From contig NC_087384.1 of the NCBI RefSeq assembly GCF_963675165.1, positions 4,581,182 to 4,645,181 on the forward strand: a stretch of 64,000 bases of DNA, written 5' to 3'. This document shows, piece by piece, positions 28,405-39,385 of the stretch. Under the pieces are notes generated by a model. That model was not told where the DNA came from. It saw only the letters and a list, made by a program, of their open reading frames with translations, and searched no databases. Numbering within the stretch: the first letter of the stretch is position 1; every line of letters begins with the position of its first letter. The position numbers and the translations under genes were made by a program. The DNA comes from Halichondria panicea. Taxonomy: Eukaryota; Porifera; Demospongiae; Suberitida; Halichondriidae.

Positions 28405-29353
28405 ATATATACATTTCCGTATTTGTCATATAAAGGTATTGGCTTCAAGAGGTTTAAAGAAATCGAGCAAAACCTGCTGTAGGATAGTAAAAACAAAGTT
28501 GCAAATGCATTCACTACAGGAGCTTTTAGTTCCCAGCGCCTTCGAAACCTTGCTAAGCACTTGTGAAATGGCCTCCAGCAAATTACAATTATCTTGCATC
28601 CTCTGTCGTCAACCAAAGTGAAAAGGATTGGATATAGAGCTGCTAGGTACTCCATTGCTACTACTGTCAGTGTGCTCATGTGCTCACTGATACAAAATGA
28701 AGGAATTAAGAACATGAAGAAGTCCAAATTGAATAGCCCCATAAAATCAGCGACAAATTTATAGAAGGAATAAGAAGGTGTATATCCGCTTATAGCAAAT
28801 GGGTCGTTTCTACACAATGCTGTGTTTAGCACCTGAGCCATAAAAACAAAGCTATTCAGAACTGGAGAGGCGATATTTATCTGGAACACAATAACAATAA
28901 CACAGATCAAAGTCAATGGTACTGTAAGCCTGACAAAGAAGAGTAACCATCCTAAAGGCTGTAGCATGCATTCCTTACATCTTTGTAGTACAAGAAGACG
29001 GCCTGTCCCAGTCCTGGTTGGCAGTGACTACAGAGCAGCAGCTCTGTGCGATTGAGAGGACCACACATCTCCTCATATAGCTTTGATAAATCAGAGGGTA
29101 CATCCATGAGTTGTGATAGTCGACTATTTGTGTTGTATGGGCAGGCTCCAAAATGCTCTATATCATTGTTGTAGGTTAAGCAGAAACTCTCTAATATTTC
29201 TGTCTTGTTTGTCACATTCGAGCACTGCAATATAGTATTGATCTGTTGTCCACACTCACACTTGTTTGCTTGGCGTATAAACCATGTTGGGCATGTTTGG
29301 CTAGACACCAGAACTACCTGTAGTAAGATCACAATCACTCTGAGTATCGTCAT
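28405..29353 (-). pseudogene. Family copy F: 3'-truncated, frameshifted
   Basis: The start aligned with the paralogues is the ATG at 29353 (MTILRVIVILLQVV..); the longer upstream frame to 29524 is not conserved. A one-base loss near 28975 shifts the frame after the ectodomain, one extra Leu codon lies at about 29038, and an in-frame 21-bp deletion removes seven residues of a membrane segment near 28610. Homology stops at about 28405, mid-gene, so the last five or so membrane segments and the tail are gone. Closest to copy E. Confidence 0.85.
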
Positions 29354-30304
29354 ATTCAAGCTTTTGACTAGGAGAAAGAAAGACCTGCACTCATTAATTA
29401 ATGTTCTGATAAACTGAAACCGCGAGTTATCAAAATTAATGGTGAAACAATAATATTTAAAAACCAACATTAAAAGTACCGGTATAATTATATGCAAGAA
29501 CTCAAAAGTATTATAATTATACATGCACTAATTACTGTACGTATTACTAGAATGTTTTCCGAGAATCAAAAATAATTATGTGAACTTTGCGAGTTTCTGC
29601 TGAATTGACTCATTCGCAAAGGTTTTTCACTCGCATAATAGTTATTGGTATAAGTGCATGCATGTTTATAATATAATTATTCAACCCACCCCCCTGCTTC
29701 GACAGCGAACCGCATAACGTTCCTATACTTACGGTCAACGATACTTGCATGGTTGGCAGTCGTATGGCCAAGGCCAATATTTAATTTACGGCAGGAAGTA
29801 CTTCCTGTTGTTCAATTGTACCTGCGGTTTCAAGCTCAATTTATGCACAAACTTTAGCTTAGCATAACACTCTATTCCTTGAACGTACATGCAATACAAC
29901 TGAATATTCTTTATTCTTATTCTATCCTCTTCATATAACAATATATATATCACAAGTTAAACACAGAGTCTTGCTCAACACAAAAGGTTTTTGTGCAGCC
30001 ACCAAAACCTTGCGGTTTTGACCTACCTGCACATTAGCTGATGCAAAATCAGTTCCCCATCCCATACCCAGTCCAGACTTGGAATAGAACTAATTCTAAG
30101 GTTGATGCTGATGTTTTCCAAAATTTGAACTGTTCTACCGCATATTCATTACGGTAGGGTATGTCAAAGTGGGCAAGGTTTTACACACATACCACATGGA
30201 ATTCCAAGAGTTGACCATTATTTGTTTGATCTGGTAAGCTATGAAAACAATGCACAATGTCATGCAGCATATACTGTGTATAATAGAATACAGAATCCAG
30301 CAAA

Positions 30305-32038
30305 ATGAGATCTGCTAGAGACGTTTCTAGCCAAAGAAGAGAGCCACGGGATGTGAATTCAGCAGTACATCCAGATCAACTATGCGAACAATGTGCTCTG
30401 TGCAAGAAGACAGACTTTTCCAAGTATTCCCACCCCAAATCCTGGAAGAATCCTTCACTACTCCAGCAACTCCAGGTCGCTGAGCCGTTTCTCAACATAC
30501 AGCCTGAAAGCTGCATTTGCTTGCTGTGTAGGCGAGATGTGAGTAAAGTCAGTGATGTTAGCTTCTCACCTAGATGGAGAAGGTGTACAAATATAGTCAA
30601 ATTGTGTTATATTCCCGATTGTCTAAACACTGACATTAAAGTTTCTAAGTCAGTAAATGTACAAGAGCTAGCACTATTTTTTCCAGTGGGAGACATAGAT
30701 GATGCTACTGTTTCTACTGTGGACGGTACTGATGATATACCACTTTGCTCACATCACTATATGCAATGGTATAAGCATACGCATTCAGCACATAGTAACT
30801 GTAAAACGTGTGGTAAAAAATTCAATAAGTACAGCAAAAGCCGTCCTGTACCAGAACCAGAACTACTTCAGCGTTTCTTAAACACCAACACTGAATTCAG
30901 TGACATCTTACACCCAGGTGATCGTGTATGCTATGTTTGCTATAAGTCACATCTTGTCGCTGTAAAGCAAATGAACTATGAATTACTAACTGTAAGCACT
31001 GATGCAGGCCTGACAGACTTAATTGTTGATATAAAGCAGAATCTTCCTACAACGTTAGAAACATGGGAAAATATAATCGACTATACTGCTCGATCACTAG
31101 CTGTTAGAGTAGGCGAAGCCCTTCTAAAACAGACTGCAATACTACTACCACGATTGTATGCGACTTTCAAGCTGGAAGTAGACTCGGTAGCCAAAAATAT
31201 TAAGGTAGACAAGGAGGACCAAGATTTTCCTAGTAATGCTTGGGTAAGAAACTCTCTCTCATCTCTGCTAAAGCATCACATGGCTTACAGATGTACCATT
31301 CGAAAGTATGGAACGCTACTATACCGCCAAGAGGGTGATCTTGTACATGCCCTTACTGTAGCTCTTGGGCAAGGCAACACAACTTTACAGTCTATTGATG
31401 ACAATGCTACATGTATGCTTACAAAAGTATGTGAGAATATTAATAACAAGCTATATGATCAGGCCAACAAATTGATTACAACTGACACTGTAAAGCCACA
31501 CAATATTGAACAAATCAATGTGGATGCATTTATTGATGACCTAGATCCTACAATCTGGAAGGCTGTATGTTTAATAACTCAACCACCGAACAAAAAACTA
31601 ACGTACGTCCGAAAAGTCAGAACAGTATTTGCTCTATGCCAGATACTTTTCACTATCAATCGGCAATGCTCTTTCCCTCTACATACACTCATAACAGACG
31701 CTATTGATATTTGTGGAGGATCCATTCGATTAAAAACCTTACTGAATCGCCTAGGTGTTTGTGCAAGCAGTGAAACACATGCTAGGTACGTACAATACAG
31801 AGTTGAGATGAGGCAAAGGGATGGGCCATTGGATGGACATATACTAGACTGTCCTATCATTGTTTCAGCTGATAATTTAGACTACCAGCAAAGTTTTGCT
31901 TGTGTCTACAGTGGCAACCAAAGTATTGGCTGGCACGGTACCACTGTACAAATCTGCTTATCAAATTCTAAGAACCCACAGCAATGGAGACCAGTGCAGA
32001 TATCCAACAGCCTACATGTACCACTACCAGCCTTGTAA
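30305..32038 (+). pseudogene. Element protein, part 1: Cys/His clusters and start of a D-rich core (577 codons)
   Basis: ATG at 30305. Two zinc-binding-type clusters are visible: residues about 28-80 (CEQCALCKK .. CICLLCRRD) and about 145-220 (LCSHHYMQW, CKTCGKKF .. VCYVCYKSH), each with the pattern C-x2-C, spaced His, then C-x2-C. A helical middle region follows. Near residue 519 comes SADNLDYQQSF and near 542 GWHGTTVQ. The hydrophobic strand followed by a D-N-x-D motif resembles the first catalytic strand of RNase-H-like transposases or DUF6589-type proteins (inference). The frame closes at 32036, but coding character continues in another frame from about 31980, so a frameshift lies just before. 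Confidence 0.7.
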
Positions 32039-32040
32039 AA

Positions 32041-33336
32041 AGGGCATACTCAACACGTTCTCCTTATAAAACCCAAACTCTAAACTCTCCTAAACCTAAG
32101 AAAGTTAGACGAAGTAGAACTGGGGTTGAAACCCGAGGCACAACATAGTCAACAACAGCTGCTGCTATTACTATAGCCGCACAGATACAAGTAACTGATA
32201 TGCAAACCATCTCAATGGAAAACTTTGAGTTAAAAACGGAAGAAAAACATTCACTGACGATATTAGGTGAAATCTGCGAGCAGTGCATTGTGCTAAAATT
32301 GGCAAACGAACAGAATCCAGATTCACTAGTTGGTATCCAGCAGTACTATTGTTTGTCACAGAATGTACCTTCTCCCGAGAAAACCTCAATAATTTACTAT
32401 AAAGTTCTAGATGAAAAGTGTGACACCAAAGAAACTCTACTCAGCATCATTAATGATCTCTACACAGAATTTATACTGTCTGGTAAGAAAACACATGTAA
32501 TACTGGAGGGTGACCAAGCTACCTACGAGAGATTGCACTCAATCAGAGTAGAATATGGGAATGAAAGCAAATGGCTCATCATCTTTCCAGGTGATTGGCA
32601 TTTCTTAAAGAATTATCAGGAGGTATTGATCAAGATATACTTCGATGCAGGTCTGAGTGACCTAGCAAGATCTAGTGGCTACCTGCCAAGGTCAATAGGT
32701 ACTAACTTCAAACGTACTCACCGTTTTCTCCTTGAAGCATGGGAGGCACTGTACAGAGTCCTGTTGAGATACTTTCTCTCCAAGCAAGCTCCCAGTGAGT
32801 TCTTACAACAAGTATCAGCACTGCTTCAGAACTTTCCTCCTTCAGAGAACCAAGCAAACGCTCACAGAAACCTGAATGAATTGATAGAAACAATTAGAGA
32901 GATAAGTAGTGATGCATCTGACTTCGAAAGCTACATGAGCAATGAATCAGAACAGAATCCCACCCTCAAGTTTTGGTTGCAATTTTTGTTCAAAGATTAT
33001 TTAGCATATCTTGCACTATACTTGGCAATGCGAAGTGGGAACTGGGATTTGCGAATGGCAGCTATAAAATTGATGGGACCCCTCTTTACTGCCTTTGACC
33101 GGCCCAAGTACTCAAAGCTTATACCTCTTCACATAAAAGAGATGTTATCTGTCCCTGCTGATATTCTCTCTCACCTGAAAGAAGGCAGGTTCACTGTCAG
33201 TATCCTCGGGCGAGCCTGTCATTCGATCGGTATTGATGAGGCGCACGAAATGTGCATCAACAAGGACTGCAAGGAGTATATCACTAGACCATCAGCAGAG
33301 AACATGAGTCGACTGGCGTCATTTTTACCTACATGA
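32041..33336 (+). pseudogene. Element protein, part 2: GDQ / GDWH region
   Basis: Continues part 1 in another frame: 32041-32145 encodes a basic linker (KPKKVRRSR), then a TAG at 32146, then an open frame to the TGA at 33334 (Met at 32200, 378 codons). Residues counted from that Met: VILEGDQATYERL at about 100 and IFPGDWHFLKNY at about 129, then a helical region. These two Asp-centred motifs are what I recall of the DUF6589-like, possibly RNase-H-fold, proteins of repeated elements in marine invertebrates. A catalytic role is inference. Confidence 0.65.
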
Positions 33337-33601
33337 GCAAAAGCAATCAAAAATTTAGAAACACAGATTTTTGCAGATAGTAAAGCTAAGAAGCCCGAGA
33401 AACAAGTTACCAATTTACACACAAGTGACCCAGAGAGCAAAATCAGTTAGACCAGAACAAGCTAATGACCTTTCCAACTTCAGAGAGATAGGTCTTAATA
33501 CTCTCAAACAGTACATTGAGTACTACATTCTTAGAACACCGAGTGTTAAGCCACCAAAACACAGAAAGACATTATTAACCTTTACTGAAAAACACGCATG
33601 A
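33337..33601 (+). pseudogene. Element protein, part 3: short link with frameshift and stop
   Basis: Coding character passes from frame 1 to frame 2 around 33430, and the frame ends in a TGA at 33599-33601 (frame starts at 33371, 76 codons). The residues between (LNTLKQYIEYYILRTPSVK..) look like a linker of the same protein. Part 4 follows in the same frame directly after the stop. Confidence 0.55.
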
Positions 33602-35458
33602 CAAAAGAAAGGCTCTCAAGTAGAAAAGGAGCGGAAACTTCAGCTTGAAGTATGGAAAAAACGTGTCTCCTTTACTGTCACAACTGGTATTAAAGACAAC
33701 ATGTATTACAAACAGTGCATTGAACTCCCCCGAGCAATAGCCACTATTGATGGAAAGCCTATTAAAGGTGCGAAGGCAAACATAACCAAGGTATATGAGA
33801 AGCGATACAAGCACGTAACACCCCCAATTTTTACAACAGCACTAAAAGATGGGTGGTCACCAGACGCTGTGATTACTGAAGGCATGTTCCTGATAAACAT
33901 CACCCCTTGGAGTTCTCACAGGACAATGGGAGACTATGCTGACTTTTTACTAAAACAGCACATCCTCCCTCATTTTAGAAATGAGTCAACATTAGAAGTT
34001 CACTTACTTTTTGATAATCCTAACTGCCAACAGTACAGTCCAAAGTACTTTGAACGACTTCATAGAGATGAGATGAACCAGATACCAGACGATCACAGCT
34101 GCAGTGACTTCACAGCAGACACGATAATACCTCTCAAGTGGAGACAGAATGTGTTGAACTGTAGAAAATGCAAGCGACAATTAGTACGATTTATTTCGGA
34201 ATACATTCTTCAGAAAATTAGGTACAGACTTAAGCCCACCCAAAGGTTTGTAACAGCTGGAGGTTTACAAGGAAGTATGGCAGAGAAGGCAATGTTTGTT
34301 ACACATCAAACAGAACCCACAGTCGATGAAAGGCTAACCAGTAATGCTGAGGAGAGTGATACTCGAATATGGCTACACGTTCTTCACTCTGCAGGTACAA
34401 GAAAGTTTGTGCTAAGCCCTGATACAGATGTGTACCACATTGGGATGACAATAATTGCAGAAACTCAGCTAGATATAGTCGTACGGTTAAGCCCATTTAA
34501 TTCTATTGAACAACGGTTACTTGACTTACCAGCTCTTCTGAGGAGCTTCAAGAACGATCCAGATTTGTCTGCAGTGGAAGAAAGAAAAATAGCACCAATC
34601 ATCCAAACATTATTTATTGCCACTGGTTGCGACTACATCTCTTTTTTCACTGGTCTAGGAAAAACCACCTTCTTAAATACATTGTTTGAATACACGGAGT
34701 TTATAACATCAAACTCAACAAGTACTCCTGGTACACTCACAGACGAACCAAATGGGTTTTTGTCTTTCTTGAGGCTAGTGGGGTGTGCCTATTTTAAGAA
34801 GCATAAGTCAGCCTTCTTACCTTCTTTTCCAACTCCAATGACTTTGTTCAACTCAGTCCAGTCAACTAGCGATCACCAACAGCGACATGAACAATGGCTT
34901 GACCTCATTCGAGACAGAATATGGATAAGAATTCAGTACGAAGAGGACATGACACCCTCACATGAAGCACTGTTTCGACATTGGAAGAGGAGTAGCTGGG
35001 TTTCATCCGTCTGGAACCAAGCAACATCAAACCACATTGTCCATCCACCACTTGAAGACTTCGGCTGGAAAAAGCCTGATCCAACAACTCTCCTGATAGA
35101 TTGGGATAGTGAAAGTAATTTGTCTCGAATCAGAGAACAAGTGGCGCTCATTCGAAAAGGCTGTGGCTGTAAAACAGGATGCTCCTCAGCACGCTGTAAA
35201 TGCAAGAAACAGAAAGGTTACTGTGGTCCTGGCTGCAAATGTACTGGATGCACTAACCTCCCTGTTGAAGCTCTTGCAACAGAGCAGGAAGACAGTGATA
35301 GTGAAGTAAGAACTAATAACGAACGTGATGAAGATTTGGATCTTGAAGTGAGCAGCAGCGATGGTAGTCACTTGGATGTTGAAGTCAACAAACTCATGTA
35401 CGACATCTTTGGGGACTCTGAAAGTGATGATTCACACAGCATGGGAGTCGGTTTCTGA
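33602..35458 (+). pseudogene. Element protein, part 4: FEN/XPG-like nuclease plus tesmin/TSO1 CXC domain
   Basis: Open from just after the 33599 stop; first Met at 33701 (585 codons). Residues from that Met: LLFDNPNCQQYSPKYFERL at about 102 resembles the XPG N-region (FDG..K..ER). SNAEESDTRIWLH .. SPDTDVYHIG at about 213-245 resembles the XPG I-region acidic cluster (E..E/D.., S-x-D-x-D). ATGCDYISFFTGLGKTTFL at about 304 resembles the GCDY..GIG helix-hairpin of FEN1. Residues 486-521 are a compact CXC cluster (GCGCKTGCSSARCKCKKQ ..), as in tesmin/TSO1 DNA-binding proteins. An acidic Ser-rich tail ends at a TGA. Nuclease activity and DNA binding are predicted from motifs only. Confidence 0.75.
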
Positions 35459-35971
35459 TTATAAACATAAACTGTGTATCAGTATTGATTTTATTCACTT
35501 ATACTATATTTATTTCACTTACTACACATTGTATACATGCTGAAAAACCACATACTATTTTAAACCTGCATAAAATCTAAACCAACAATGGGAACAACTA
35601 GCTAATAATTTAACAACATAGAATAGACCTACCTGTACAACATCAACCACCTGAAAACTTGTGATCTAGTGGGGAACTGATTTTGCAGAAGCAGGAGTAA
35701 AGACACCTAAACACACTTGTTCTACACACTGGCTTGTAACTTCGTTCCAGTGTGATTACACTCCACAAACCTGATATCAACTTGTAGCTGGGATGATACC
35801 CTTCCAGTTTGTGGTGTTGTTTTTTACCATATGACCTACGCATGCTTCTAAACTAGCCTCAAACTCAAGCCCTCTTTTTTGTTTACTCTCCAGCATGACG
35901 TATTTGGAAATGCATATTAAATTAACCGTTAGGCATTTACATGGACTTCCGGTGCCTTGGCCATTCGACTG

Positions 35972-38448: not shown

Positions 38449-39385
38449 TCAAGTGGTTGGTGGAAACAACGGTGCGTATTCGCTTGGGTCACTGATACGA
38501 TGTGGAAGAGTTTCGTTATTTGTGGACAGTCCTGTCGGATGTGTAACTCGTCTTTGGTGGCAGCAGCTAAAACCACACCGACTGGTAAGAGCAGATATCA
38601 TCCATGAAATAAACAATACCATGTACAGCATTAGTATACCTATAGCGATAATCACTAAAAAAACCCATCTAATATTCTTGAACACCTCACGATAATTGTA
38701 TAAAGATAACCCTATCGCAAACACTAGTAGAAGAAAAACATCAAAATAGTTGTAACGGTCTTTCTTGTATGGTCGAAGGCCAAGGATAATGACAGGTGTA
38801 ATAATGAAGACCATTTGGTACACAATATTGTGGTATGCCTGAGAACCAAAGGCTATGAATATTATTCTCAACAGTAGGTAGACTCCAGCAAACCATCGAC
38901 AGTCCCTAGTACCAGGTGTTGTGCCGTTCTTGAATAGCCCTGTGTGATGTTTGCTAGCTCGTGAATTAGAACACATTTGATTTTGCAAAAATAGAGACAT
39001 CTCTGAAAGAAACGATTCTGGTAGAATAGCTGAAACATTGCTGGTAGGAATACCGTGATAACAATAATGATTGATGATATTATAGCTAGTGGAATATATG
39101 TGCCCACATTAAAATCGGCTGCAAAGAAGAGGGTGTATGTTACATTTCCGTATTTGTCATATAAAGGTACTGGCTTTAAAAGGCTTAAAGAAATCGAGCA
39201 AAACCTGCTATAGGACAGTAAAAAGAAGGTTACAAATGCATTCACTACAGAGCCTTTTAGTCTCCGAAACCTTGTTAAGCACTTGTGAAAAGGCCTCCAG
39301 CAAATCACAATTATCTTACATCCTTTGTCGTGGAGTAAAATAAACATTGTCAAGTAGACAGCCAAAGTAAAAGCGATTGGTTATA
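38449..39385 (-). pseudogene. Family copy G: 5'-truncated, frameshifted
   Basis: Homology covers only the C-terminal two thirds of the membrane part, from about 39385 to the TAA region at 38449. One base is missing near 38931 (gttcttgaatagcc against gttcttgaaatagcc), shifting the frame. The tail reads EYAPLFPPTT: the LL of other copies has become LF. The ectodomain and first membrane segments are absent; repeat DNA starts abruptly after 39390. Confidence 0.85.

Follow-up and report, generated by a model that had tools for sequence, protein, structure and literature searches.

A decayed, probably AcademX-like DNA transposon of the sponge Halichondria panicea, with a DUF6589 core and a putative FEN/XPG-like nuclease

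We wanted to establish what kind of element occupies positions 29757-35971 of a stretch of 64,000 nucleotides from the sponge Halichondria panicea (contig NC_087384.1 of assembly GCF_963675165.1, positions 4,581,182 to 4,645,181, forward strand). This whole stretch is called the window below. An initial annotation, made from the letters alone, had proposed here a possible new type of DNA transposon, which would pair an RNase-H-like core with a FEN/XPG-like nuclease and a CXC domain. We consider, with a probability of about 0.85, that the element is a decayed autonomous DNA transposon of an AcademX-like kind; it was matched to AcademX by published description and not by sequence.

The element, its ends and its copies

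We observed that the proposed interval ends exactly on the outermost bases of an 18-bp inverted repeat. The element thus delimited (29757-35971, plus strand) measures 6,215 bp, and related copies have the same ends and 4-bp target-site duplications (TSDs). Its left terminal inverted repeat (TIR), CAGTCGTATGGCCAAGGC, lies at 29757-29774 on the plus strand, and the right one, also of 18 bp and 94% complementary to the left, lies at 35954-35971 on the minus strand. Inside the TIRs there is a subterminal pair of inverted repeats of 23 bp, located at 30037-30059 (plus strand) and 35670-35692 (minus strand), with 91% complementarity. Elements of the family start with CAGT and finish with ACTG.

The element contains a single large gene on the plus strand, which in the window is divided into three frames (30287-32038, with the first Met at 30305; 32149-33336; 33602-35458). 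The long protein was annotated as broken, and this was borne out by comparison with two other copies, in which it is encoded by one frame of 1,732 codons. We then searched the 131-Mb genome with the third gene piece and obtained 58 matches, the window's own place counted. Three full copies (L002, L003 and L004) were 99.4-99.7% alike across approximately 6.2 kb, while the sequence outside differed. Two of these three carry the intact frame and the other one has 1,617 codons. Intact relatives that moved recently are present elsewhere in the genome. The intact protein and the third gene piece of the window showed 58% identity. A further copy, L005, is broken; it has approximately 82% DNA identity to the window copy over a long match and the same terminal start base.

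Identical 4-bp sequences were found on both sides of L002 (GAAC), L003 (TGAA), L004 (TAAT) and L005 (GTAC). Altogether, a perfect 4-bp TSD was present in 15 of the 17 elements with both ends located (L002-L005, L030-L037, L038, L039, L046, the L028/L040 element and the window copy). The count left out L041-L045 and L048, for which the pattern gave one end or none, and L001, which has the same flanks as the window copy. It also left out L047, whose candidate ends (flanks CTTT and TTAT, no TSD) were judged not to be those of one element; with L047 included the result is 15/18. A search with the initial 204 bases of the window copy gave 22 matches (this copy and its duplicate counted), 16 of which start at the first base. 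The 17-base terminal pattern, allowing up to 2 mismatches, was detected 58 + 58 times in the genome, compared with 12 + 14 times for the reversed control. Shortened derivatives with the same ends were also present, namely L030-L036 (1.2-2.2 kb) and L037 (3.1 kb). The TIRs, the TSDs and the near-identical copies at unrelated sites support the earlier claim that this is a DNA transposon, and the window copy is an ordinary dead copy of it.

One copy, L001, lies on the same contig at a distance of 78 kb and is 99.2-99.4% identical to the window copy. Since the flanks are common to both, L001 is part of a duplicated segment and not a second insertion; approximately 108 bp of L001 are absent from the window copy. 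Direct repeats of 121 + 83 nt, which are 86-90% alike, flank the element at 28410-28622 and 39141-39344 of the window, approximately 10.7 kb apart. They sit in similar reading frames, which look like membrane proteins (an impression formed without a search). The flanking direct repeats together with the 78-kb duplicate suggest a tandemly duplicated gene region.

Two further observations concern relatives. The left end of L005 contains an insert of approximately 1.5 kb (333-1851 of L005), bounded by perfect inverted repeats of 35 bp, which is probably another nested element. The C-terminal 272 residues had five matches of nearly equal strength, at G000 C7:2057542, 2265813, 2391809, 2777754 and 4015346, with 40-41% identity to the intact protein; they make up another, divergent family of this kind. 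Scans of viral contigs and prokaryote genomes, with two short peptide patterns per scan, gave 12, 93 and 23 pattern matches, none of which was confirmed as a relative.

The DUF6589 core and a second family with a helicase

The first gene piece (30305-32038, plus strand) encodes N-terminal Cys/His clusters and the first Asp of the core, located in SADN (Asp codon 31871-31873). The second piece (32149-33336, plus strand) encodes the second Asp, located in EGDQ (Asp codon 32512-32514), followed by PGDWH and DEAHE (33235-33249). The Asp motifs of the initial annotation are present in the frames, SADNLDYQQ in 30287-32038 and both EGDQATYE and PGDWHF in 32149-33336. We assessed conservation on 15 rows aligned piecewise to the intact protein, and all counts refer to rows with letters at the given column. 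The N-terminal Cys columns were kept in 6/6, 7/7, 8/9 and 9/9 rows. As for the acids of the core, the Asp of SADN was kept in 5/5 rows, the Asp of EGDQ in 6/7, and the two Glu of DEAHE in 8/8 and 7/7.

The second piece matched Pfam DUF6589 (PF20231) with an E value of 7.3e-15, and the intact copy with 1e-13. There were 92 DUF6589 matches genome-wide, one to several per element. The core is DDE-like by its conserved Asp, Asp and Glu, and to this extent the proposed RNase-H core was upheld; Pfam and PDB-sequence searches, however, gave no RNase-H match, and an RNase-H-like fold is putative.

We also identified another DUF6589 family, represented by L011, L049 and L050. It is 5,349 bp long (2069-7417 of L011), has long inverted ends and is 99.9% identical between copies. 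All three copies are flanked by 9-bp TSDs (TCTAGTGCT, TCCACAAAC and ATATCATAG). On its opposite strand, L011, the sole copy read for genes, encodes a helicase that matched DEAD with an E value of 1.1e-13 and Helicase_C with 1.9e-11. The motifs GDN, GDQ, EDWH and HMEHLNR of L011 are reminiscent of those of the window family. By its 9-bp TSD and its helicase, L011 fits published AcademH.

Further, we compared the profile of the window family with one built from four DUF6589 loci outside it, L011-L014 (L049 was left out). The resulting alignment had 379 columns, with a probability of 93.5 and an E value of 2.3e-07, and placed EGDQ on GGDQ and PGDWH on EDWH. Its score of 63.8 was reached by none of 100 column-shuffled decoys, the best of which had 25.3.

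The FEN/XPG-like stretch and the CXC cluster

The third gene piece (33602-35458, plus strand), supported by genome matches and conserved acids, was annotated with three FEN/XPG-like signatures (FD..K..ER, EESDTR..SPDTDV and GCDY..GLGK) and a CXC cluster, and all of them were found in its frame. In FEN1, the first strand carries an acid, and the further catalytic motifs are, in order, FDG, E.E, D.D and G.DY..G.G. The window family has counterparts in the same order, namely EGM, FD, EESD, DTD and GCDY..GLGK. In the window these lie between 33878 and 34636 on the plus strand: the Glu codon at 33878-33880, the Asp codon of FD at 34013-34015, EESD at 34349-34360, D.D at 34421-34429 and GCDY at 34625-34636. 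We placed them by conservation and motif order, without profile support.

Seven FEN-like positions were acidic in every row (7/7, comprising 6 Glu and 1 Asp; 7/7; 10/10; 10/10; 9/9; 10/10; 14/14), compared with 11% of fully conserved columns among those nuclease columns covered by at least six rows. A diverged relative, L023, has IIVFDGLQL at the first acid. When the whole protein was shuffled 20,000 times, the last three motifs fell into FEN-like spacing once; the pattern used was designed after both families had been seen. The same pattern fits 8/8 archaeal FEN1 proteins and misses the sole host XPG exon examined, a short fragment. The family is like FEN1, XPG and EXO1 in the way its acids are ordered and spaced and in the G.D[YF]..G.G motif, but unlike them in that no statistical sequence similarity was found and that its first acid is Glu in six of seven rows and Asp in one. 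The claim of a FEN/XPG-like nuclease was supported in motif order and conserved acids, but not in XPG profile matches, which neither Pfam nor PDB-sequence searches provided. The stretch resembles FEN/XPG nucleases and may have their activity; its membership in that family is putative.

We estimated the ratio of nonsynonymous to synonymous substitution rates (dN/dS) between the window copy and L005. The ratio was 0.23 across 1,619 codons overall, with 0.40 in the N-terminal part, 0.18 in DUF6589, 0.08 in the linker, 0.105 in the nuclease part and 0.26 in the C part with CXC; since the two copies compared are broken, these ratios tend to be upper bounds. Between L005 and L028, on fewer codons, the values were 0.60 (N-terminal part), 0.09 (nuclease, 101 codons) and 0.19 (C part). 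Silent sites were saturated between the window copy and L002. The ratio was below 1 in every coding part. The nuclease part is under strong purifying selection and was needed during the spread of the family.

The CXC (tesmin/TSO1-like) cysteine cluster lies at 35156-35257 on the plus strand. Its cysteine pattern is common with LIN54/tesmin, but its match to Pfam TCR (E 0.015, 16 bits) falls under the Pfam cut-off of 23.5 bits. Five of eight alignment members matched TCR, the best with 0.0027, and the family profile matched lin-54 (5fd3) with an E value of 0.0012.

Genome search with XPG_I pointed to nine other places, none of which belongs to the window family. We noticed that six XPG_I matches (L018 at G000 C13:3752339 and five more to 3866203) lie within approximately 114 kb, in open frames of 588-601 amino acids; this cluster is presumably an expanded family of asteroid-like genes.

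Placement of the element and its meaning

In the excerpted text of PMC10045372, the TSDs of AcademH (9-10 bp) and AcademX (3-4 bp) are tied to the helicase and the nuclease that they respectively encode. Academ is counted among DDD/E superfamilies in the excerpted text of PMC9587614, and curated bivalve Academ elements average 5,565 bp according to an extract of PMC10294476. This length is near the 6.2 kb of the window element. Within what these extracts say, the window family is like AcademX in having a nuclease-like part and a 4-bp TSD (15/17 elements), and like AcademX and Academ in the DDE-like conserved acids of its core; no point of difference from AcademX was shown. The published AcademX nuclease is reportedly XPG, per Kapitonov and Jurka and per Kojima. 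AcademH is a different case: the window family has 4-bp and not 9-10 bp TSDs and gave no helicase match in Pfam searches, although its core aligns to the profile of L011-L014, of which L011 fits AcademH by its helicase and TSD. No Pfam families of KDZ (Zisupton group) or CMC, which were also considered, were recognised among the matches listed.

Since the two DUF6589 forms of this genome fit the pairing of nuclease or helicase with TSD length, in so far as the extract sets it out, we assign the window element to an AcademX-like class. The idea of a new transposon type was rejected: Academ, as described there, already has a nuclease lineage (3-4 bp TSD) and a helicase lineage (9-10 bp TSD), these lineages match, and DUF6589 elements of both forms are present here.

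Several results weigh against this placement or against the nuclease, and they have to be considered together with the alternatives they favour. The window copy itself lacks a TSD and is, with L031, one of the two such elements among the 17. The alignment of the two cores stops short of the first Asp, and where it pairs DEAHEMCINR with LHNEHINR, the Glu residues are offset by at least one column. Because these Glu residues fall in different columns, a third acid common to both DUF6589 forms is putative. Moreover, the likeness to Academ comes from descriptions of lineages and not from reference proteins, and our literature search found no paper naming DUF6589 and nothing relevant for PF20231 or for XPG with Academ. 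The unaligned third acid, the reliance on lineage descriptions and the absence of DUF6589 from the literature searched would suit a separate, undescribed superfamily that has only TSD length and a distant core in common with Academ. We regard this as improbable, as the core aligns to a DUF6589 profile which includes L011, with the TSD length and helicase of AcademH, and the nuclease-like part with the 4-bp TSD fits AcademX. It is slightly easier, though still unlikely, to imagine a C-terminal part other than a FEN/XPG-like nuclease, with acids that serve another fold. Support from Pfam, PDB-sequence and profile-profile searches was missing. The Pfam families XPG_N and XPG_I gave no match to the window pieces at E up to 1, or to relatives and alignment members at E up to 10, where HMMER filters drop most matches above E 0.1. 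PDB-sequence search matched CXC proteins only and nothing in the nuclease. Comparison by hhalign of the family profile (without the near-duplicates L001, L003 and L004) with a FEN1 profile, built from five archaeal PDB chains, three archaeal loci and one host XPG exon, was not significant, as nearly half of the shuffled decoys (73 of 150) did as well. Single-sequence structure prediction of the window nuclease part gave no usable fold (predicted local distance difference test, pLDDT, 36.8). Against another fold stand the seven FEN-like positions that are acidic in all rows with letters, the rarity of the motif order among shuffles (with the reservation about the pattern given above), the FDG of L023 and the nuclease published for AcademX, as an extract gives it (PMC10045372).

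We find it very hard to believe that the locus is a host gene or a domesticated transposase and not a mobile element. Purifying selection and the flanks that the window copy has in common with the copy 78 kb away would agree with this, but other copies are near-identical, with unrelated flanks and TSDs of their own, and the window copy is broken. A single-copy or host gene was therefore rejected on the 58 matches and on the near-identical copies at unrelated sites with their own TSDs. The initial annotation had named the lack of XPG or RNase-H matches and a single-copy state as grounds for abandoning its proposal; the former is literally true of the Pfam and PDB-sequence searches, but the latter is false.

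On the AcademX-like reading, the intact element would produce a single protein of approximately 1,730 amino acids, which starts with zinc-type clusters, continues with the DUF6589 core and the FEN/XPG-like nuclease, and has the CXC cluster in its C-terminal part. Both kinds of cluster, zinc and CXC, may bind the element ends or other DNA, and the core would cut and join the 3' ends with a stagger of 4 bp. The nuclease could process a 5' flap or the second strand. In the sister lineage a helicase would take the place of the nuclease, with a stagger of 9 bp.

In this one genome, the DUF6589 core has two alternative partners: a FEN-like nuclease in the form with 4-bp TSDs, and a helicase in the form with 9-bp TSDs. 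We suggest, tentatively and with considerable doubt, that the partner enzyme, and not the core, may set the integration stagger or co-evolve with it. A link between partner enzyme and TSD length has already been published for Academ, according to the extract of PMC10045372. If our reading is true, two things would be new: DUF6589 would be assigned to Academ, and the two forms, with their intact or near-identical copies, could be tested side by side. This Pfam family of unknown function would gain a likely identity as the core of Academ-type transposons. As both published Academ designs co-occur here, and near-identical copies of each lie at different sites, the role of the partner nuclease or helicase in transposition would become testable.

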